Shown here one piece after another: positions 7,131 to 50,609 of a stretch of 64,000 nt of DNA. The stretch's first letter is position 1. Each line of letters opens with the position of its first letter. The position numbers were made by a program, and so were the translations under genes. The notes under the pieces are model-generated. The model saw only the letters and a list, made by a program, of their open reading frames with translations. It did no database searches and had not been told where the DNA came from. Source of the stretch: an uncultured bacterium (GTDB lineage Bacteria; Cyanobacteriota; Vampirovibrionia; Gastranaerophilales; Gastranaerophilaceae); the NCBI GenBank assembly GCA_949292185.1, contig CASEYP010000007.1:124001-188000 (forward strand). Direction: 5' to 3'.

Positions 7131-8285
7131 ATGTCAGGCATAGATATAAGAAGATTTTTGAATAACTTCGGAAGCAACTATCAACAACAAACACTATCAG
7201 CTAAAAATAGTGTAAATAATGTTGCCCAAAATCAAACCAATCAATCCTCTCAAAATATTGCCTCTCAAACACAAAATATATCTGCAAATCAACCAACCCA
7301 AACAACAAACACCCAACTTGCACAAAATCTTCAATTAAACGCACTACAAAATATGGATAGAGCAGTTTATGCAAAAGAAGTTCTTCAACTTCCAAAAAAT
7401 GTAAATGAATTTATCTATATGCTTCAACGAGGTTTAACCCAAAGCCAATTTAACCAACTATTTGCAAACCAACTTGCAGCCCAACGAAATTCACTCTCCC
7501 AACTTCAAGCCCAAATTCTTGCTCAACTTCAAGGACTAAACACGACACTAAACGACGAAATAATTAATATTCAACTGGTAAATCAATTACAAACATCCCT
7601 AAAAAAACTTGAAATTTTATCAGGCGGAATGATTAACCTGTCTGATATTTCCATTTTGCTTCAAAAGAATGGGAAGGAAGCTTTAACCAAACTAATTATG
7701 TCAATGACAGAAGCTTCAAAATCAGGTATAACAGATCTTTCACAAATGAAAGAAATGGCAAAACTAATAAATGCAAGTATCTCAATAGCTGCTGAAAACA
7801 CCCCGCAGAAAACCTTAAAATTACTATTATTACTTTATTTACCTTGGCTTCCGCTTGAAGAAGGCACAGATTTTGATATTGAAATTCAACAACAAAATAA
7901 AGGAAACGAAGAAAGTGATAGTATCCTTGTAATAACAATTACAACAAAGAATTACGGAACAATAAAAGCAACCCTAATTCTTGAAAGTTCTAATTCTGTG
8001 CAAGTTCAAATTGAATGTTCCGAAGAATTTCCAAAAGATGAACTAAAATTACGAATTGATAAAGAACAAAAATATTATGCAATGGATTCTGTTATATCAT
8101 TTGAACAAAACAACAATTCAACAAAACCTACCCAAAAATCTGAACAATCTGCAAACATAAATATGTCCCAAACAACCGAAATTAATCCATATTTACTTTT
8201 AATGGCACACGCTCTTATTAAACACACAATAGACATAGATAACAATAAAACCTTAGGTATAACCTCACATACGGATAAATTTTAA
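7131..8285 (+). CDS. Q/N-rich protein with FliK-like C-terminal domain (putative)
   Basis: A 384-residue cytosolic-looking protein. Residues 15-70 are low-complexity Q/N/T, 100-165 are helical and Q/L-rich, and 225-325 form a globular region. That region has the order YLPWLPL, a charged linker, a strand-rich segment (VITITTKNYGTIKATLIL) and a weakly conserved last helix (INPYLLLMAHALIKHTIDID). This order resembles the C-terminal domain of divergent flagellar hook-length control (FliK-like) proteins of Firmicutes. That match is from memory and is not certain. There are no flagellar structural genes nearby. No ribosome-binding site is visible; TTAAAT lies seven bases before the ATG and may be a -10 element of a leaderless transcript. 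Confidence 0.5.
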   Translation: MSGIDIRRFLNNFGSNYQQQTLSAKNSVNNVAQNQTNQSSQNIASQTQNISANQPTQTTNTQLAQNLQLNALQNMDRAVYAKEVLQLPKNVNEFIYMLQRGLTQSQFNQLFANQLAAQRNSLSQLQAQILAQLQGLNTTLNDEIINIQLVNQLQTSLKKLEILSGGMINLSDISILLQKNGKEALTKLIMSMTEASKSGITDLSQMKEMAKLINASISIAAENTPQKTLKLLLLLYLPWLPLEEGTDFDIEIQQQNKGNEESDSILVITITTKNYGTIKATLILESSNSVQVQIECSEEFPKDELKLRIDKEQKYYAMDSVISFEQNNNSTKPTQKSEQSANINMSQTTEINPYLLLMAHALIKHTIDIDNNKTLGITSHTDKF

Positions 8286-9374: not shown

Positions 9375-12300
9375 ATGGCTTTAGATAATAAATTCGATAT
9401 AAACAACCAAAACAAAATTCAAAGTACCCCGATAAACACAGGGAGTACTTCGAGTACAACTGGCACCGAATCTACATCTAAAGTCATTTCTTTTGAGAAT
9501 ACAACAAAACAAGATCCCGTTGTTGAAACAATTAAAACTGAAGAATTTCAACAACTTACACCTGAACAACAACTCGCGGAATTAAAGAAAAAATTCCCTG
9601 ATATTGATGAAAAGGTATTACAAGAAACAATAAACACAGTAAAATCAACAATAGAGCAAAAAGAAAATTCACTCCAAACAACAGATACCCCTTCAACAAA
9701 TGAAAATGTAAGTGAAGAAGAACAATTATTAAACCAATATGCTAAAGAAATCAATAAAAACAATATTGATGATGTAATTGCACACATAAAATTAAAAAAT
9801 CCAAAAGAATTAACACCGGAAGAACAAAAAATATTACAAAATTATGAATCGCCAAAAACTAATACAAAACTAATAATCCGCACAGAAACATTAGAAAAAT
9901 ATATAAATAAATATGGCGATGAAATCGACAACATAATTCCAAAAAACAAATTAAACACTGAAGAATGGAAAAATAAAACGCCAAAAGAAAAACTGGACGA
10001 AAGAGCAGATGCCGTAATAAGTCGATTAAATCCTGATTATGATAAAATAACTGACCCAACTGTAAGAGAAAAAGTTAAGGCAGAATTTTATGATAAAATC
10101 GGTGAAATTATCAATCCTGATTGGGATACATTTACGCCTGAAGACAAATCTAAACGAATTCAAATGCTAGCAGTAATGATGGATGCCTTAGAAACAAGCG
10201 GCAAGCCAATTTCTACGATATTAACTGCTAATGAACAAACACGCAAAGATATAATGAAACAATATGGCGGCAGACTCATAAATGTAATCCTTGCCGACAA
10301 AAATATTGATGTAACTGATCCAGAATGGGCCCAAAAGAATGAAAAAGAACAAATAAACGCTTTTGCAGACTCAGTGCTGGAAACAATAAATCCTGCTTTC
10401 AAAACTTTTAACGAAGAAAAAAAGCAAGAATACAGGGACAACTTTATAAATAAAATTGGCCAAGAATATATACCAAATTGGGACAAACTAAGTAATGAAG
10501 ACAAAGCAAAATATGAAAAAATATTTGCACGTCAAATAAGTGCAATAAAATATTCTGTTGACACTGACGGCAGAATAAAAACATTTGAAGATTTTAAAGA
10601 TTGTACACCAAAACAACAAATAGAATTAATAGAAAAATATGAACAAGCTCAACATTTACCGATATCAGAAACTGATAAAATAATAAGAGAAGCAATTAAG
10701 TCCAAGAATACATACAAAATATCTAACAAAGACGTTATAAAAACAATCGATAAAAAATTAAAAGATAAAGACTTATCCCCTGAAACAAGAGCAGAACTTG
10801 AAAAACTTCGTGAAGAAAAAGTTTTAGCTTCAAAAATCAGCGATAACCCTGATGAGGAAACATTAGCGACCTTAAATTCAACAGAATCAGATATCAAACA
10901 CAAATTTAAAAATAATGCAAAGGTATATTTACAAGACATTGCAAAGACTTACAATTTAGAAAATATCGAAGATATCAAAAACAATAAAGAAGCAATGGAA
11001 TATATCTTTGCTAACTGTAATGACGACAAGACAAGAAGACGTTTATGCAGTCTATTGGGTGTAAATCCAATAGACGTACCACAAAGCAAAGCTCAAGCAA
11101 CAGATGCAATGGCTCAAAACTTAATTAGCGCAGATATAAAAGGTATCCAAACTTCTACAGATGTATTACATAAAATAGGCGCTAAAAAAGTAGTCAAAAA
11201 TGCATTATATGAAACCCCAAAATATGTTAAAGAGCATAATGGCAGATTAGCAATTGGCGGACACGCCGTAAACGTAGATAAAGACTACTCTAACGCAGTA
11301 GCAAAGAGCTGGAACAATCTTGAATATGTAACAACAGAAGAAGCAAAAGCCTTAGGTCGAGATTTTAACACTTCAGAAAACGTTTCTAATGCCGCAAAAT
11401 CACTATTCACAAAGACATTTGTCGAAACAGCAGCAAATGATCAAATAAGAGTAGAATACGGTCAAGAATTATCTAAAATTGATAACTCTTCTGTAACAGA
11501 AGGCTTAGCAGCCGCATCAAATTCTGTTGGAAACGAATACAGAAATCAATATAATTCATACGTAGAAACTGCAGCACAAAATTATCCACCTGAACAACAG
11601 GCAAACATTCGTTCTGCAATGAAAACAGGTGAAATTTCACAAGAAACACTATCTCAAACAACACCACCTTCAAACGAAAATTATTCAAATAAAACATCTG
11701 AAGGTAACCTAGGAAAAGATAGTACAAATACAGCAACAAATAAATCTGCAACATCTGAAGCAGCAAACACACAAAATGCAAACGCAGGAATCCAAAATGA
11801 TGCACCACAACCTCAAGTATCAGGTAGAACATCTGTATCAGATACAACAAACATATACAATACAGCTGCTCAAACTCAGAATTTCACAGCACAATTAAAA
11901 CAACAAAATGTAACAGAACCAACATATTCTACAGCTACATCAGCAACTGAAAATTCAACAACTTCAGCCAAAAATACATCTGCTAAAGCTCAAAATTCAG
12001 CAATTGATGACAATTTTACAACTGAAGCCTTACAAAATAAAAAGGAAGCTGTTGCAAACAATATAGAAAATTACCAAACAAGAGTTGAAACAACAAACAA
12101 AGAACAACAAGCAAAAGAACTTTCAACAGAAAATCTTGAATTTATAGATAACCTTCTTCAAGAAAATACCGAACCTACAAATTCTGAAAGAGAAAAAATA
12201 AGACAAATCTTTAAGAACGCAGGTACAAATATCAATGCAATATATACAATTATAATAGACAAATACGGATCACAAGCCCAAGATAAATTCTTGGAAATTC

Positions 12301-13262
12301 TTGCATCAAACGGGTCTTCTGACAGTATAAGATCTTTTGTTAATGGTATGAAAAGTGATTCCAGTATAATTAAAAAATTGTACACTCATTGTTCAAATCA
12401 AAAACTAAAATCAGAATTGCTAAATATGCTGCCAATCAATGACATCATTTCAATGATAACAGCCGGACAAATTAAGATTTCTGATTTAGGAACAACTAAT
12501 TACAAAAGAGTAATTGCTGAATTAAAACAATCTGACCCTGAAAAATTAAACGAATTATTTGGCGAATTTGAAAACAACATAAGAGATAAAATATCTTCAG
12601 GATACACTCTTAATAATGCAGACCGTTTAGCACTTCAAAACTATCTTACAAATAATATTGAAGGAATGAGTAACACAAAATTTTCAAGATACCTTCAATA
12701 CTTACCAATAGATACAAGAGAAGAACTTGTTGCGCTAAAAAATAATCCAAAAAATAAAACTGAAGAAACAGAAAATTCTCAACCACAAGAGAGCAAAGAT
12801 TCAGTAGATCAAGCCAATAACGCAGCAAAAACAAACGACCTACAAACAGCCAAATCTCAAGACGAAGAAAATATAGAAAAAGAAAATAAAACACAAAGTC
12901 TTGCCCAAGAAAAAGAAAACAAAATCTTCAAAGACTTTGAAACTCAAACCGTACTAAATGACGGAACAAAAGTAAAACGTAAAGAAACATTTGGTGGCAT
13001 AAGTGATAATACAGATATGTACGATGATTATGAAGAAATTTCACAAGTAAATGAAACACCTTCAATGAAAGATCCTGTATTAACACCAGGCTCATACGAA
13101 TGGCAAGTCAAATACAATAAACAAATGGATTACCAACCAAAAACTCCACCGACAAACTTGCCGGAAGAAGATGACGGAATTTTGTTAGGCTCAAACAAAG
13201 TAAGCCAAAGACTTAAAATTGATAAAATGAAAAAAAGAGGACCATTTTATTTTAACGCCTAA
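9375..13262 (+). CDS. Giant 1295-aa unknown protein with internal duplication
   Basis: A single uninterrupted frame of 1295 residues. There is no signal peptide and no transmembrane helix. Residues 1-125 are T/S/Q/E-rich. Residues about 170-277 and 286-400 are two copies of one helical unit (see the repeat entry). Residues 400-735 are charged and helical. Residues about 735-915 are low-complexity N/T/S/A/Q. Residues 925-1090 are again helical and globular-looking, followed by an acidic linker and a conserved-looking C-terminus ending in KKRGPFYFNA. Only a weak ribosome-binding site (AGAGAA) precedes the ATG. Base composition matches the neighbours. No enzyme or adhesin motif is visible; a structural or scaffold role is only a guess. 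Confidence 0.65.
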   Translation: MALDNKFDINNQNKIQSTPINTGSTSSTTGTESTSKVISFENTTKQDPVVETIKTEEFQQLTPEQQLAELKKKFPDIDEKVLQETINTVKSTIEQKENSLQTTDTPSTNENVSEEEQLLNQYAKEINKNNIDDVIAHIKLKNPKELTPEEQKILQNYESPKTNTKLIIRTETLEKYINKYGDEIDNIIPKNKLNTEEWKNKTPKEKLDERADAVISRLNPDYDKITDPTVREKVKAEFYDKIGEIINPDWDTFTPEDKSKRIQMLAVMMDALETSGKPISTILTANEQTRKDIMKQYGGRLINVILADKNIDVTDPEWAQKNEKEQINAFADSVLETINPAFKTFNEEKKQEYRDNFINKIGQEYIPNWDKLSNEDKAKYEKIFARQISAIKYSVDTDGRIKTFEDFKDCTPKQQIELIEKYEQAQHLPISETDKIIREAIKSKNTYKISNKDVIKTIDKKLKDKDLSPETRAELEKLREEKVLASKISDNPDEETLATLNSTESDIKHKFKNNAKVYLQDIAKTYNLENIEDIKNNKEAMEYIFANCNDDKTRRRLCSLLGVNPIDVPQSKAQATDAMAQNLISADIKGIQTSTDVLHKIGAKKVVKNALYETPKYVKEHNGRLAIGGHAVNVDKDYSNAVAKSWNNLEYVTTEEAKALGRDFNTSENVSNAAKSLFTKTFVETAANDQIRVEYGQELSKIDNSSVTEGLAAASNSVGNEYRNQYNSYVETAAQNYPPEQQANIRSAMKTGEISQETLSQTTPPSNENYSNKTSEGNLGKDSTNTATNKSATSEAANTQNANAGIQNDAPQPQVSGRTSVSDTTNIYNTAAQTQNFTAQLKQQNVTEPTYSTATSATENSTTSAKNTSAKAQNSAIDDNFTTEALQNKKEAVANNIENYQTRVETTNKEQQAKELSTENLEFIDNLLQENTEPTNSEREKIRQIFKNAGTNINAIYTIIIDKYGSQAQDKFLEILASNGSSDSIRSFVNGMKSDSSIIKKLYTHCSNQKLKSELLNMLPINDIISMITAGQIKISDLGTTNYKRVIAELKQSDPEKLNELFGEFENNIRDKISSGYTLNNADRLALQNYLTNNIEGMSNTKFSRYLQYLPIDTREELVALKNNPKNKTEETENSQPQESKDSVDQANNAAKTNDLQTAKSQDEENIEKENKTQSLAQEKENKIFKDFETQTVLNDGTKVKRKETFGGISDNTDMYDDYEEISQVNETPSMKDPVLTPGSYEWQVKYNKQMDYQPKTPPTNLPEEDDGILLGSNKVSQRLKIDKMKKRGPFYFNA
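9882..10574 (+). repeat. Tandem 120-residue coding repeat (two units)
   Basis: Within the 1295-aa protein, unit 1 (residues about 170-277) and unit 2 (about 286-400) share landmarks at a constant offset of 119-120. These are ADAV/ADSV at 211/331, NPDYDK/NPAFKT at 219/339, and KIGEIINPDW/KIGQEYIPNW at 241/360. The copies are diverged, so this is an old duplication and not a DNA-level tandem repeat. Confidence 0.65.
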
Positions 13263-34976: not shown

Positions 34977-36548
34977 TTATAAATTTTCTAATGCCGCAAT
35001 TTTCATATCTTTAAAGTCAGGAACTCTTCCTGTCCAGATTTTTTCGGCTGCTGCAGCTTGATAAATAAACATATCAACACCATTTATAGTTCTATAACCA
35101 TTTTTCTGAGCCAATTTTAATAATAAAGTTTTTTTAGGGTTATAAATAACATCATAAACAATAGCCCCGCTTGGTAATGTTCTAAGTTCATTTTCTTCAA
35201 CAGGCGTCATATCAGCAGCTCTTCCCTGCATACCGATTGGAGTTGTATTAACTAATATCTGAACATCAGACAAATCTCTTATCCGCTCAATTTGAAAAGC
35301 ATGAAATTCAACTTTTTGAAATTTATTTCTCAAAAAGTTCAACAATTCCAAACTGTTAGGAATATTTCTTGTAAAGATTTTAATCTGTTTTACCTGATTT
35401 TGAGCCAAAGCAGTAATTGCAGCTCTTGCAGCCCCGCCTGTTCCTAAAACTCCGGCCGTTTTACCTGCCAAAATTATATCTGACGGAATTGCATCTCTAA
35501 ACCCTATAACATCTGTATTATATCCAACCATTGTTTTATCAGGATTAATAACAACAGTATTAACTGCACCCACAATATCTGCAGATGGATCAATTTTATC
35601 TAAAAATAACGTAATCGGTAACTTTAACGGTATAGTTACATTAAATCCTGCAAATCCGTTATTCTTTAAATATTTAACTCTATCAACCAATGTATCAGGT
35701 GGAGTTTCTAAAATATCATAAGTAGCATCTATTCCTAAACTCTTAAATCCTGCATTATGAATATACGTTGATAAAGAATGTCCTAAAGGATAACCGATAA
35801 CACAATATTTATTAAGATTTCTAGTTTCTGAAACTGCAGTCTGTATCTTTTCTTCTGAAAGATTACCTGTATATTTATGAGTTTGAGAAGAAGACTGAGT
35901 TCCACTTATTGTTTGAGACTGAATTGTTGTATTTGAACTCATAGATCCTGAATAACTGTCAAATGAATTACTTGATAAATAATTGTTATTATTTTCTAAT
36001 CCTGAACTTTGAGTTGAAAAATTTGAATTAAAACTATTTGAATAATTTTTATAAACTTCAGAATTTGTATCAACTGAAGGTTTGGAATAAGTTGTTGTCC
36101 AAGAAGAATTTGATGATACTTCAGTCGGTTTTGTTTGGTCGTTTTGTATAGAATTTTGTGAACCAAAAACACTTGATGAAGTATTATTTAAAACATGTTG
36201 ATTTGAATTTGAACTTATATTTGCATCTTGATTTGTATAAGATACATTATGTGATTCATAATTATTCTGAGGTTGTGAAGGTTGATTATAAGTGTTTGAT
36301 ATATTTGTTTGATTTGGCGAATTATATGAAGTTGCTTGATTATTTTGAGCACTATAATTGTGCGAGAACACAGGAGTATTTTGAGTTTCAGGCTGAGAAT
36401 TTTCAGTCGCCACATTATTAACTTGAGGAACAGAATTTGTCTGTTGAGCCTCACTTTCCATCTGCTGCTTTAACTCAGAAAGACTAATACTTACACCTTG
36501 CGCTTTTAATTGTTTATAGCGTTCATATAATTCTTTACTTACAGCCAT
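34977..36548 (-). CDS. aroE: Shikimate dehydrogenase with long disordered N-terminal extension
   Basis: A 523-residue fusion. Residues about 245-523 are a complete AroE that reduces 3-dehydroshikimate to shikimate: YPLGHSLSTYIHN, NVTIPLK with the catalytic Lys, GYNTDVIG with the Asp, and the NADPH loop GTGGAARAA. Ahead of it lie a 35-residue helical segment (AVSKELYERYKQLKAQGVS) and about 190 residues almost wholly of S, N, Q and T. AAGGA nine bases before the first ATG shows that the extension is translated from the start, and the frame is unbroken. Normal AroE has about 275 residues and no such tail. It is the last gene of the lptC-lptA-TPR-dprA-topA run. Confidence 0.92.
   Translation of the reverse strand: MAVSKELYERYKQLKAQGVSISLSELKQQMESEAQQTNSVPQVNNVATENSQPETQNTPVFSHNYSAQNNQATSYNSPNQTNISNTYNQPSQPQNNYESHNVSYTNQDANISSNSNQHVLNNTSSSVFGSQNSIQNDQTKPTEVSSNSSWTTTYSKPSVDTNSEVYKNYSNSFNSNFSTQSSGLENNNNYLSSNSFDSYSGSMSSNTTIQSQTISGTQSSSQTHKYTGNLSEEKIQTAVSETRNLNKYCVIGYPLGHSLSTYIHNAGFKSLGIDATYDILETPPDTLVDRVKYLKNNGFAGFNVTIPLKLPITLFLDKIDPSADIVGAVNTVVINPDKTMVGYNTDVIGFRDAIPSDIILAGKTAGVLGTGGAARAAITALAQNQVKQIKIFTRNIPNSLELLNFLRNKFQKVEFHAFQIERIRDLSDVQILVNTTPIGMQGRAADMTPVEENELRTLPSGAIVYDVIYNPKKTLLLKLAQKNGYRTINGVDMFIYQAAAAEKIWTGRVPDFKDMKIAALENL
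35874..36443 (-). repeat. Low-complexity S/N/Q/T-rich coding segment in aroE
   Basis: Residues about 36-225 of the AroE fusion. The segment is dominated by Asn, Ser, Gln and Thr with scattered Tyr and few charged or hydrophobic residues, a prion-like composition. The codons vary, so it is not a simple DNA microsatellite. Confidence 0.85.
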
Positions 36549-36574
36549 AATGTCAATCCTTATATTTAATTATT

Positions 36575-38899
36575 TTAACCTTCTTGCTGTTGTGGAGTTT
36601 CAGTTTCTTCCATAGTTTTTTTGTAACCGCATTTCAAATTAGAACAAGAAATTACCGTTCCTTTTTTAAGAACTTTTTTAACTAAAAGACTTCCACAATT
36701 CGGACAAGTTTCACCTGTCGGCTCATTCCACAATACAAAATCACAATCAGGATATTTATCACATCCGAAAAATACTGTACCACGTTTTGATTTTCTTTCA
36801 ACTATTGTACCTTTTCCACATTTTGGACAAGTTACACCTGTTGATTTTCTAAAAGGTTTACGATGTTTGCACTCAGGATTTGTGCATTCCATATACTTTC
36901 CATAAGGTCCAACTTTGAAAATCATATCAGAACCGCATTTTTCACATTTTTCTTCACAAACTTCCTGAGGTTTTTCGGAGGAATTTTCTTCACTTTCTTC
37001 CATTTCCTGCATAACATTTAAAGACATTGCCGTCTTGCATTCAGGATACCCTGAACACCCTAAAAATTGTGAACCTGTTTTACTTGTTCTTAAAACCATT
37101 GGTTTGCCGCAATTTGGACAGGTATATTTAGTTTCAATCGTAACTTTTTGAGCTGTTTTCATTACAGAATTTACTTCTTCCATAAACGGAGTATAAAAAT
37201 CTTGTAAAACCTTTACCCAAACAGCTTCTTTATCTGCAATTTTATCAAGTTTTTCTTCCATGCCCGCAGTAAATTTATAATCCATAATATCTGCAAACTG
37301 TGAAACTAACTGTTTTGAAACAGTACGACCCAAAAGTGTAGGTCTAAGTGCTTTATCTTTCTTTTCAACATATTTTCTTGTCTGAATAACAGTAATAATA
37401 GTAGCATAAGTAGAAGGTCTACCAATACCGTATTCTTCCAAGGCTTTTACCAAAGATGCTTCATTATATCTTGGAGGTGGTTGTGTGAAGTGTTGTTTTG
37501 GATCAATTTTCTTGCATACAACCTTATCACCTTTTTCTAAATCTGGAATTTTAGCATCCGATGATTTTTCCTCATCCTCTTCAGAATCGTTATATAAAGT
37601 TAAAAATCCGTCAAATGTAATCTTGCTTGTACCTGCTCTTAGTGTATAATCACCTGAAGTTATTTCTATTGATTTATTTGCAATTTCAGCAGGTGCCATT
37701 TGAGAAGACATAAATTTTTCCCAAATTAATTTATACAATTTGTACTGATCATTATCCAAATATTTTTTTATACTTTCAGGGGTTCTTTCAGGATATGATG
37801 GACGAATAGCTTCGTGAGCATCTTGAACATTTTGTTTTCCTTTTGCATAAACATTTGCTTTTTCAGGATAATATTTTTCTCCGTAATGCTCTAAAATAAA
37901 ATCATGTGCCATATTTTGAGCATCTTCAGAAACTCTGACACTATCGGTTCTCATATAAGTAATTAAACCGACCGGAGTACCGTCTATTTCAATACCTTCA
38001 TATAACTTTTGCGCAACTTGCATTGTCTTTGATACGCCAAACCCTAATTTTGAACTCGCTGCTCGTTGCATTGTTGAAGTTATAAATGGTGCTGTAGGTT
38101 TTCTCTTTGTTGATTTTTTTGTAACTTTTGATACTTCGTATTGTGTTTGCGGATTTGTTAAATAATCTACAATCTTTTGAGATTCGTCTTTATTTTTTAT
38201 AGTTTTTTCAATAGATTTATTTTTTATTTTTGCAAGTTCAGCCTCAAAAGTCTTGCCATCTTTATCTAATAGCGCATGAATTGACCAATACTCTTGAGGT
38301 ACAAATGCTTCAATTTCATCTTCTCTTTCGCAAATCATTCTAAGCGCTACAGATTGAACTCTTCCTGCTGATAAATTTCTATTTCCAATTTGTTTCCACA
38401 AAACAGGACTCAATTTAAAACCTACTAATTTATCCAAAATTTGTCTTGTCTGTTGAGCCTGAACCATATCCATATCAATATTTCTAGGGTGCTCTACAGA
38501 ATATTTAACAGCCTTTGGAGTAATTTCGTTAAATACAATTCTGCAAATTTTATCATCCGGAACTTTTAATACCTGTCTTACATGCCAGGCAATAGCTTCT
38601 CCCTCACGATCGGGGTCGGATGCAAGATAAATTTTATCTACTTTTTTTGCTAAATCATTTAACTTTTTAACAACTTGTTGTTTCCCGGGGATAATTTCAA
38701 ACTTAGGTTCAAAGTTATTGTTAACATCAAACCCTAAATTTTGTGTTGCAGAATCTTTTGTCGGCAAATTTCTAATATGCCCGTAACTTGCCTCTATCTG
38801 ATAATCTCCACCTAAAATCTTTTTAATAGTTTTTGATTTTGCCGGTGATTCGACTATTACTAACGATTTTTCTTTTGATTTACTCTTCGCTTCTGCCAT
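36575..38899 (-). CDS. topA: DNA topoisomerase I
   Basis: A type IA topoisomerase of 774 residues that relaxes negative supercoils. The Toprim domain starts at SLVIVESPAKSKTIKKIL with DPDREGEA further on. The active-site Tyr lies in GLITYMRTDS, and EAIRPS is conserved. After about residue 610 there are four C4 zinc ribbons (CPNC...CSGYPEC, CEKC...CTNPEC, CPKC...CDKYPDC, CPNC...CSNLKC), one more than in E. coli TopA. AAGGAT precedes the ATG. It follows dprA by six bases; the dprA-topA order is widespread. Confidence 0.96.
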   Translation of the reverse strand: MAEAKSKSKEKSLVIVESPAKSKTIKKILGGDYQIEASYGHIRNLPTKDSATQNLGFDVNNNFEPKFEIIPGKQQVVKKLNDLAKKVDKIYLASDPDREGEAIAWHVRQVLKVPDDKICRIVFNEITPKAVKYSVEHPRNIDMDMVQAQQTRQILDKLVGFKLSPVLWKQIGNRNLSAGRVQSVALRMICEREDEIEAFVPQEYWSIHALLDKDGKTFEAELAKIKNKSIEKTIKNKDESQKIVDYLTNPQTQYEVSKVTKKSTKRKPTAPFITSTMQRAASSKLGFGVSKTMQVAQKLYEGIEIDGTPVGLITYMRTDSVRVSEDAQNMAHDFILEHYGEKYYPEKANVYAKGKQNVQDAHEAIRPSYPERTPESIKKYLDNDQYKLYKLIWEKFMSSQMAPAEIANKSIEITSGDYTLRAGTSKITFDGFLTLYNDSEEDEEKSSDAKIPDLEKGDKVVCKKIDPKQHFTQPPPRYNEASLVKALEEYGIGRPSTYATIITVIQTRKYVEKKDKALRPTLLGRTVSKQLVSQFADIMDYKFTAGMEEKLDKIADKEAVWVKVLQDFYTPFMEEVNSVMKTAQKVTIETKYTCPNCGKPMVLRTSKTGSQFLGCSGYPECKTAMSLNVMQEMEESEENSSEKPQEVCEEKCEKCGSDMIFKVGPYGKYMECTNPECKHRKPFRKSTGVTCPKCGKGTIVERKSKRGTVFFGCDKYPDCDFVLWNEPTGETCPNCGSLLVKKVLKKGTVISCSNLKCGYKKTMEETETPQQQEG

Positions 38900-48005: not shown

Positions 48006-48089
48006 TTTTCATTTACCTTCTAATTGCATTAATAACATTTTTCAACTATGCTTGATTATAGCATATTTTTTTTTATTTGGGAAGAGGTC

Positions 48090-50609
48090 ATGGAAAAACT
48101 ATTAGAAAATCTTAATAAGGAACAACAAGAAGCAGTACAAACAACGCAAGGTCCACTGTTAATTTTGGCAGGTGCCGGATCTGGAAAAACAAAGGTTCTT
48201 ACAACAAGAATAGCCTATATGATTCAACATGGGGTAAGACCAAGAAACATTTTAGCAGTAACATTCACGAATAAAGCTGCCAAAGAAATGAAAGAACGTA
48301 TCGGCAAGATTATTGGTGAAGATACCGTAAAATATATGTGGGTTGGAACATTCCACGGAATTTGCGGAAGAATTTTGAGAGAGAATATTGATAAATACAA
48401 TACCTCAACAGGCAAACATCTAGATAAGAACTTCACAATCTATGATGATTCTGATACAAATCAAATAATTACAAGGGCAATCAAAAAACTTAATTTAGAT
48501 GATAAGGTATATCAAACAAAACTTGTAAAATCTGTTATATCAAACGCAAAAAATAAAATGCAAGATGCACATACATTTGCGACATTTGCAAGAGATTTCA
48601 AATCGCAAAAGATTGCATCAATCTATGAAGAATACGAAAAATCATTAAATAACAATAATGCAATAGATTTCGATGATATGTTAATGCTTACAGTAAAATT
48701 ACTTGAGCAAAACGAAGAAGTAAGACAGCAATACTATGATAGATTTCAACACATAATGGTTGATGAATACCAAGATACAAACTTAGCACAATACAAATTA
48801 GTTAATATGCTATACACAAATCTATCAAAAGACGTTCCGCAAGAGCGTTCATTATGCGTAGTAGGAGATGTTGACCAATCAATATATTCTTGGCGTGGTG
48901 CAGATTTTACAATCATAATGAACTTCCAAAAAGATTATCCAAAAACAAAACTTATAAAACTTGAACAAAATTACCGTTCAACAGCACACATATTAAATGC
49001 CGCAAACGCAGTTATCGAAAACAATAACGAGCGTGTTGATAAAGTTTTATATTCAAATAAAGGAGAAGGTGAAAAATTAAGTTATTATATAGCAGATGAT
49101 GAAGCTGATGAAGCAAATTATATAGTAAGCAATATAAAAAGAACAGCTCACGGAAATTACAATCAATTTGCAATATTATATAGAACAAATAACCAATCCC
49201 GTGCCCTAGAAGAAGCTTGTATGGCAACAGGAGTTCCATATAGAATATATGGCGGCACAAAATTCTACGATAGAGCAGAAGTTAAAACCGTAATATGCTA
49301 TCTAAAACTTATAAATAACACTGATGACTCTCAAAGTTTGCGCAGAGTAATAAATATTCCAAAAAGAGGAATAGGTGAAACTACATTAAAAAATCTGTCA
49401 GACTTTGCAAATTCAAGAGATATAAGCCTTTTTGAAGCAATAAAAATTTGTGAAGAATCTGATATCAATTCAAAAACTCAATCAAAATTAAAAGACTTTG
49501 CAAACTTAATCTACAAATTCCAACAAGCAAAAGATTCTTATACCCTAAAAGAATTTGTAACACTTGTTATAGAAAAATCAGGATACTTAGCAGAACTTCA
49601 AGCAAAAGCCGTAAGTGATCCGGAAGTACAAGATGATATAAACAACTTGCAAGAACTTGTAAACGTTGCAGAAGAATTTATTCCGGAAGAAGAAGACAAT
49701 ATCTTAGGTGAATTTTTGCAACAAGTAGCCTTAGTATCAGACCTTGATTCAATGGTAGATGAAGCAAACAACGTAACAATGATGACACTTCATGCTGCAA
49801 AAGGTCTTGAATTTCCAATAGTATTTATAGCCGGAATGGACGAAGGAATTTTCCCAAGTCAAAGAACTCTGCAAGTTCCATCAGAAGTTGAAGAAGAGCG
49901 CAGACTTATGTACGTTGGTATAACAAGAGCAGAAGAAAAGCTATATCTCGTTTCAGCCAAACGTCGTCAAACTTGGGGTGAATACAGATACTACAACCCG
50001 TCAAGATTTATTGAAGAAATTCCGCATAACCTGATAGAATCAACTGAATCAGAAAGCAGAATGAGCAATTCTTCAACATTTAGAAATGCAGTATCAAAAG
50101 CAAGAGAATCATACGCAAAAACTGATTCAGACGGATACGTAAGACCATCATCAGGATTTGGTACAAACTTTGTAGCTCCACAAAGAAGAGGTTTAGCAAG
50201 TTCCAATAAACCAAGTTCTAATTATACAAATTCAAGCTACAATAAACCAACAAGCAACAGAACACCACAACGCACGATTATCGTAAAATCTGCAATAAAT
50301 AAAAAACGAGAAGAAGAAAAAATTGCAGCATTTTTCAAAGATAATGCAATAAAGCGTATGGCAGATGAACGCCGTCAACGCCTTGAAGCAGAACGCCAAA
50401 AAGAACAGGAAAGAAAACAAGAACGCGATAATGCCAAAATTATTGATGATATATATGATGTAGGACAAAGAGTATTCCACGAACAACTTGGAATAGGCCA
50501 TGTAACTGATGTAATGACAGTAGGCGAAAGCGTAATGTACACAATTGATTTTGGCAAACTTGGCAAAAAAGCAATGGATGCGACATACGCAAAATTAAAA
50601 AAATTCTAA
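48090..50609 (+). CDS. pcrA: UvrD/PcrA-type superfamily 1 DNA helicase
   Basis: An 839-residue 3'-5' helicase. Motif I is GAGSGKTKVL near residues 28-37, motif II is VDEYQDTN, motif III is GDVDQSIYSWRGAD, motif IV QNYRST, motif V TLHAAKGLEF and motif VI YVGITRAEEKL. A disordered S/N/T linker (about 660-740) and a basic coiled-coil with an SH3-like C-terminal end (QRVFHEQLGIGHVTDV) match PcrA/UvrD. The frame opens at 48048, but the N-terminal alignment and GGGAAGAGG just upstream favour the ATG at 48090. It acts in repair and replication restart. Confidence 0.92.
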   Translation: MEKLLENLNKEQQEAVQTTQGPLLILAGAGSGKTKVLTTRIAYMIQHGVRPRNILAVTFTNKAAKEMKERIGKIIGEDTVKYMWVGTFHGICGRILRENIDKYNTSTGKHLDKNFTIYDDSDTNQIITRAIKKLNLDDKVYQTKLVKSVISNAKNKMQDAHTFATFARDFKSQKIASIYEEYEKSLNNNNAIDFDDMLMLTVKLLEQNEEVRQQYYDRFQHIMVDEYQDTNLAQYKLVNMLYTNLSKDVPQERSLCVVGDVDQSIYSWRGADFTIIMNFQKDYPKTKLIKLEQNYRSTAHILNAANAVIENNNERVDKVLYSNKGEGEKLSYYIADDEADEANYIVSNIKRTAHGNYNQFAILYRTNNQSRALEEACMATGVPYRIYGGTKFYDRAEVKTVICYLKLINNTDDSQSLRRVINIPKRGIGETTLKNLSDFANSRDISLFEAIKICEESDINSKTQSKLKDFANLIYKFQQAKDSYTLKEFVTLVIEKSGYLAELQAKAVSDPEVQDDINNLQELVNVAEEFIPEEEDNILGEFLQQVALVSDLDSMVDEANNVTMMTLHAAKGLEFPIVFIAGMDEGIFPSQRTLQVPSEVEEERRLMYVGITRAEEKLYLVSAKRRQTWGEYRYYNPSRFIEEIPHNLIESTESESRMSNSSTFRNAVSKARESYAKTDSDGYVRPSSGFGTNFVAPQRRGLASSNKPSSNYTNSSYNKPTSNRTPQRTIIVKSAINKKREEEKIAAFFKDNAIKRMADERRQRLEAERQKEQERKQERDNAKIIDDIYDVGQRVFHEQLGIGHVTDVMTVGESVMYTIDFGKLGKKAMDATYAKLKKF

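Follow-up and report, generated by a model that had tools for sequence, protein, structure and literature searches.

Long disordered arms are unusual on the core-metabolism enzymes of bacteria, and a described case close to the one reported here is the SrpI-associated cysteine desulfurase (CyD), a family-2 encapsulin cargo whose 225-residue disordered N-terminal domain, with sparse conservation and two short motifs, is a proven docking arm (PMC8049743). The closest solved relatives of the shikimate dehydrogenase (AroE) described here, PDB 1nvt and 2egg, resemble it across the whole catalytic core in a full-length match, with alignments that begin near their own N-termini, whereas our protein has 246 additional N-terminal residues. 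Within our partial coverage of the literature we found no paper describing a disordered extension on AroE, and the extension is apparently lineage-specific and undescribed. From a 64,000-nucleotide stretch of an uncultured Gastranaerophilaceae genome (hereafter the window) and its relatives, we arrive at a reading, held at a probability of roughly 0.5, in which the window AroE is a sole, normal shikimate dehydrogenase with a lineage-specific N-terminal docking arm that would tether it to a partner or to itself.

The aroE open reading frame runs on the minus strand from 36548 to 34977 and encodes 523 amino acids, which matches the coordinates of the initial annotation exactly (the strand had been left unstated there) and places AroE, a head and an S/N/Q/T-rich region in one frame, as had been reported. 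It lies directly downstream of topA (end at 36575) and dprA, and the dprA-topA-aroE order is retained in most relatives, extended and plain alike. The core is a complete AroE, matching TIGR00507 at E=2e-67 over residues 248-522 with 227.2 bits against an equivalog cut-off of 200.2, and Pfam Shikimate_dh_N at 1.1e-25; the Pfam N- and C-domains of AroE score above threshold, and the central PF01488 domain falls slightly below it (20.5 vs 24.3 bits). Its substrate- and nucleotide-binding domains retain the conserved catalytic Lys and Asp together with the motifs NVTIPLK, AVNT, YNTD, GTGGAARA and GxDM, and K309, N330, D346, Q497 and G369/G371/G372 are invariant (n=66 sequences). The genome also encodes AroB, AroC and two members of the AroA/MurA family in frames of ordinary size (369, 352, 429 and 450 aa), none of these pathway enzymes being extended. 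Because the genome holds a single AroE, the extended one, this must be the working enzyme, its activity predicted, of an apparently functional pathway.

Table 1. Features of the extended aroE gene and its upstream neighbour, in window coordinates.
Feature	Coordinates	Strand	Description
topA (DNA topoisomerase I), upstream neighbour	36575..38899	(-)	gene order
Ribosome-binding site region before head	36549..36566	(-)	AATATAAGGATTGACATT then ATG
Head, residues 1-36	36441..36548	(-)	predicted helix 5-16, turn, helix 23-36; signature; pN/pS 0.14
Linker (predicted disordered), residues 37-244	35817..36440	(-)	62% S/N/Q/T; motifs WTTTYS, KYTGNL; pN/pS 0.53
AroE core, residues 247-523 + stop codon	34977..35810	(-)	conserved motifs; pN/pS 0.07

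The extension had been called real and translated, with a ribosome-binding site of its own, and both points are borne out. The start ATG is preceded by AAGGATTGAC, a Shine-Dalgarno-like motif stands before the head in 66 of the 71 extended homologues, and the window gene has neither an in-frame ATG, GTG or TTG from residue 203 to the core nor an in-frame start with a ribosome-binding site near the core. When pN/pS was pooled pairwise over 17 close pairs, the values for head, linker and core (0.14, 0.53 and 0.07) indicated strong purifying selection on the head, nearly matching that on the enzyme core, and a linker that is weakly constrained and fast-changing in sequence and length. Since the head is under such selection, it is translated. 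The proposal that the true start is internal and that the upstream frame is open by chance, leaving the extension an annotation artefact, had no evidence found in its favor, is refuted by this selection and retains a negligible probability; the open frame and the conservation of the head in 71 homologues likewise exclude a frame error.

The head, initially described as helical, was modelled by AlphaFold from a 66-sequence alignment as helices 5-16 and 23-36 with pLDDT ~90, and the isolated head again yielded two helices, with confidence reduced to a mean pLDDT of 77. Its signature, [ED]-L-x-x-[RK]-Y-x-x-x-K-A, includes a tyrosine (Y11) and a lysine (K15) found in 71/71 homologues. One g1 sub-clade has lost helix 2 and retained helix 1, with GFxAL shortly past helix 1 in most of its members, as expected if helix 1 binds. 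We found no significant known family for the head among Pfam, NCBIfam, PHROGs and PDB sequences, and no non-AroE protein bearing it in its own genome and 58 relatives (E<0.01). Comparison of the head model with 3 PDB chains gave a best Z of 3.4. Sequence matches to designed toroids (5byo, 4yxz) were not counted, since they reflect a short helix motif that these artificial proteins repeat, and apparent non-AroE matches in other genera of the order lie within unrelated proteins and look like chance.

The linker, about 208 residues in the window protein, is predicted to be disordered: AlphaFold leaves residues ~55-227 unstructured, mostly at pLDDT <50 against about 96 for the core, and FoldIndex gives -0.17 for the linker and +0.24 for the core. 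Its richest 80 residues reach 66% S/N/Q/T, the highest value for any of the 226 ORFs in 254 kb (the window plus ~190 kb of further stretches, 13% of the genome), where the best-window value has a mean of 29% and an sd of 8%. Other S/N/Q/T-rich proteins examined in this sample have no assigned function or are TPR, HEAT or UvrD proteins, and are not biosynthetic enzymes. Among the sequences surveyed, two window proteins of 1295 and 384 aa (9375-13262 and 7131-8285, plus strand) lack a Pfam match and have S/N/Q/T-rich segments (57% over 80 residues); a UvrD/PcrA helicase (48048-50609, plus strand) has an S/N/T/R-rich segment ahead of a C-terminal tudor-like domain; and at L153:9843-10898 (plus strand) a 351-aa protein without a Pfam match, RNA-binding-like, combines an N-terminal CxxC...CxxC zinc-ribbon-like motif with a long YNNNRQGGYNR repeat region.

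The initial annotation had made prion-like character the essence of this region, a description that is not supported. One criterion for such character is at least 30 Q+N per 80 residues. Judging disorder and prion-like character by AlphaFold confidence, FoldIndex and Q/N counts, we found that the window protein reaches 31/80 and is the only one of the 71 homologues to pass this level. Each homologue has its own linker, ~25 to 231 residues long after the head and ranging from S/N/Q/T-rich to P/Q/E-rich, with identities of 38-60% in several pairs examined; those of g2, g6, g7 and g8 have a median of 39% S/N/Q/T and more charged residues and proline. Short motifs nevertheless recur by clade, all far above within-linker shuffles, although shared ancestry inflates the counts: Y[TS]GN[VLIS] in 24/42 linkers (shuffled mean 0.06), a WxTTY-type motif in 22/42 (0.15) and EVPSYxFGP in 13/29 (0.00). 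The g1 set comprises Y[TS]GN, WxTTY and GFxAL, and that of the g2 group YVQxTI, PETVK and EVPSYxFGP; because the motifs vary between genera, any linker-borne interaction has turned over. Elsewhere in its own genome, WxTTYS did not exceed a reversed-pattern control. Collectively, these sequence comparisons indicate that prion-like character is not conserved, while disorder, the head signature and clade-specific short motifs persist.

In two species, a REP-like palindrome (ATCCTGAACTTGTTTCAGGAT) lies in frame within the AroE linker (L099:3160-3357 and L091:3184-3270), followed in L099 by a second GC-rich palindromic stretch. The same palindrome occurs at other Gastranaerophilales loci (L043, L047, L056 and L088), and none was found within the window. 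These in-frame palindromes are reminiscent of Rickettsia palindromic elements, and they show one route of linker growth.

All 71 distinct extended homologues come from Candidatus Gastranaerophilales gut genomes and belong to five genera (g1, g2, g6, g7 and g8) of one family, which fits the earlier suggestion of a lineage-specific expansion. The head profile matches 34/36 genomes of the window's genus (E<0.001), with a single frame of AroE size in each, except that one gene is divided between contigs. Plain AroE, with frames of ~280-330 aa, is found in g4, g5, g9, g10 and some thirty further genera sampled in the family, and plain length prevails in most of the sampled phylum, in keeping with the initial remark that such a region is not normal for AroE. 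Genome G066 holds a further extended Gastranaerophilales AroE (L161). Long AroE frames in G285, G280, G292 and G325 proved to be an open frame upstream of plain AroE without an S/N/Q/T arm and were set aside.

The distribution of extended and plain forms on the AroE tree requires four changes. The simplest account has a single gain close to the root of this part of the family, a loss in the large plain clade and two more within g1 (L121 and L123). A single gain is favored over two because the head sequence is shared. In L123 a plain AroE still has topA directly upstream, with no head remnant; in L121 a plain AroE has relocated to a different neighborhood. This second gene (L121:2025-2882), of g1 type and outside the topA-aroE neighborhood, is fast-evolving (branch 0.49). 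Because the extension has been cleanly lost in at least two lineages, it is accessory to catalysis, and because the whole of it is lost in L121 and L123, it is dispensable there.

How such an arm might act can be outlined from its two parts. Residues L7, R10, Y11, K15 and A16 on one face of helix 1 would bind a partner, either a different protein or a second AroE chain, and the linker would serve as a flexible spacer that provides reach and secondary contact motifs. The arm would thereby raise the local concentration of AroE at the partner and leave its chemistry unaltered. We count in favor of a docking arm the constraint on the head with invariant Y11 and K15, the predicted hairpin, the linker with its predicted disorder and its motifs, the single AroE in a genome with other pathway genes, the g1 sub-clade that retains helix 1, and the architecture shared with SrpI-associated CyD. 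Against it we count that no partner was found, that no further protein in the genomes searched bears the head, that the motifs vary between genera and that two g1 lineages are without the whole extension. More tentatively, and on balance doubtful, the head may represent a docking domain not described before, one that brings an enzyme of primary metabolism to a particular partner or site and gives Gastranaerophilales a spatially organized shikimate pathway.

Among the other explanations, self-association of the head is unlikely. Head hairpins would here dimerize or oligomerize and sticky Y/S/N/Q-rich linkers would let AroE cluster or condense, a scheme consistent with the conserved face of the hairpin, with a polar-rich linker containing ~8% aromatics and with the lack of a second head-bearing protein, which a self-binding head would predict. 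Some heads also share with the SinI/SinR dimerization hairpin (PF08671) a similar short helix-turn-helix with a G-I-S-x-E-E-L turn, and 5/16 gave weak SinI matches; these are, however, non-significant (best E 0.029, under the gathering score), and the head protein has no DNA-binding domain. Neither Q/N richness nor linker length is conserved, and linkers of ~25 residues are short for phase separation. Less likely again is a near-neutral history in which a single event between topA and aroE produced the extension, which was then kept mainly because the start codon and ribosome-binding site had moved to it, with the linker left to drift and swell. The high linker pN/pS, variable length, mobile palindromes in frame in two linkers and clean losses agree with such drift, but it is already strained by the head, whose constraint approaches that of the catalytic core and which has two residues invariant in all 71 sequences, and linker motifs persist.

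That the head is a basic amphipathic helix placing AroE at the membrane or at RNA or DNA is quite improbable: helix 1 does have a basic charge of +2 to +3 and in some clades is modestly amphipathic, but its mean hydrophobicity is negative, its hydrophobic moment varies from 0.04 to 0.42 across clades and its invariant residues are Y and K, with no hydrophobic stripe. We consider it more improbable still that the arm loads AroE as cargo into a protein shell, in the manner of microcompartment enzymes or of the cysteine desulfurase packaged by family-2 encapsulins. The arm has the architecture of that of SrpI-associated CyD, yet no BMC shell protein (PF00936) or family-1 encapsulin (PF04454) was detected in 60 family genomes, where positive controls were. 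The initial annotation had suggested that the region could target AroE to a condensate, a pole or a surface; one form of targeting, entry into a shell, lost support through these searches. An SrpI-type shell (PF19307) had no match in 21 genomes of the genus, a search in which the positive control also went undetected.

The docking-arm reading, which we prefer, concerns an arm that is datable, open to comparison over dozens of genomes that include natural losses, and reducible to a 36-residue element. Should the arm recruit AroE to a partner, this would count as evidence for a spatially organized shikimate pathway in uncultured gut bacteria, and a strongly constrained head joined to a fast-evolving linker that takes up mobile palindromes in frame offers a clean case of disordered-arm evolution. 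In AROM and other fused shikimate enzymes (PDB 5swv, 7tbv, 2gpt and 3fbt) the AroE domain likewise sits within a larger polypeptide, but the partner in AROM-type fusions is another folded enzyme domain, whereas the window AroE is joined to a small hairpin by a disordered arm. The likeness to SrpI-associated CyD, in which an ordinary enzyme also carries a long disordered N-terminal domain, is one of architecture only, the enzyme and the motifs being different from those of the window AroE.
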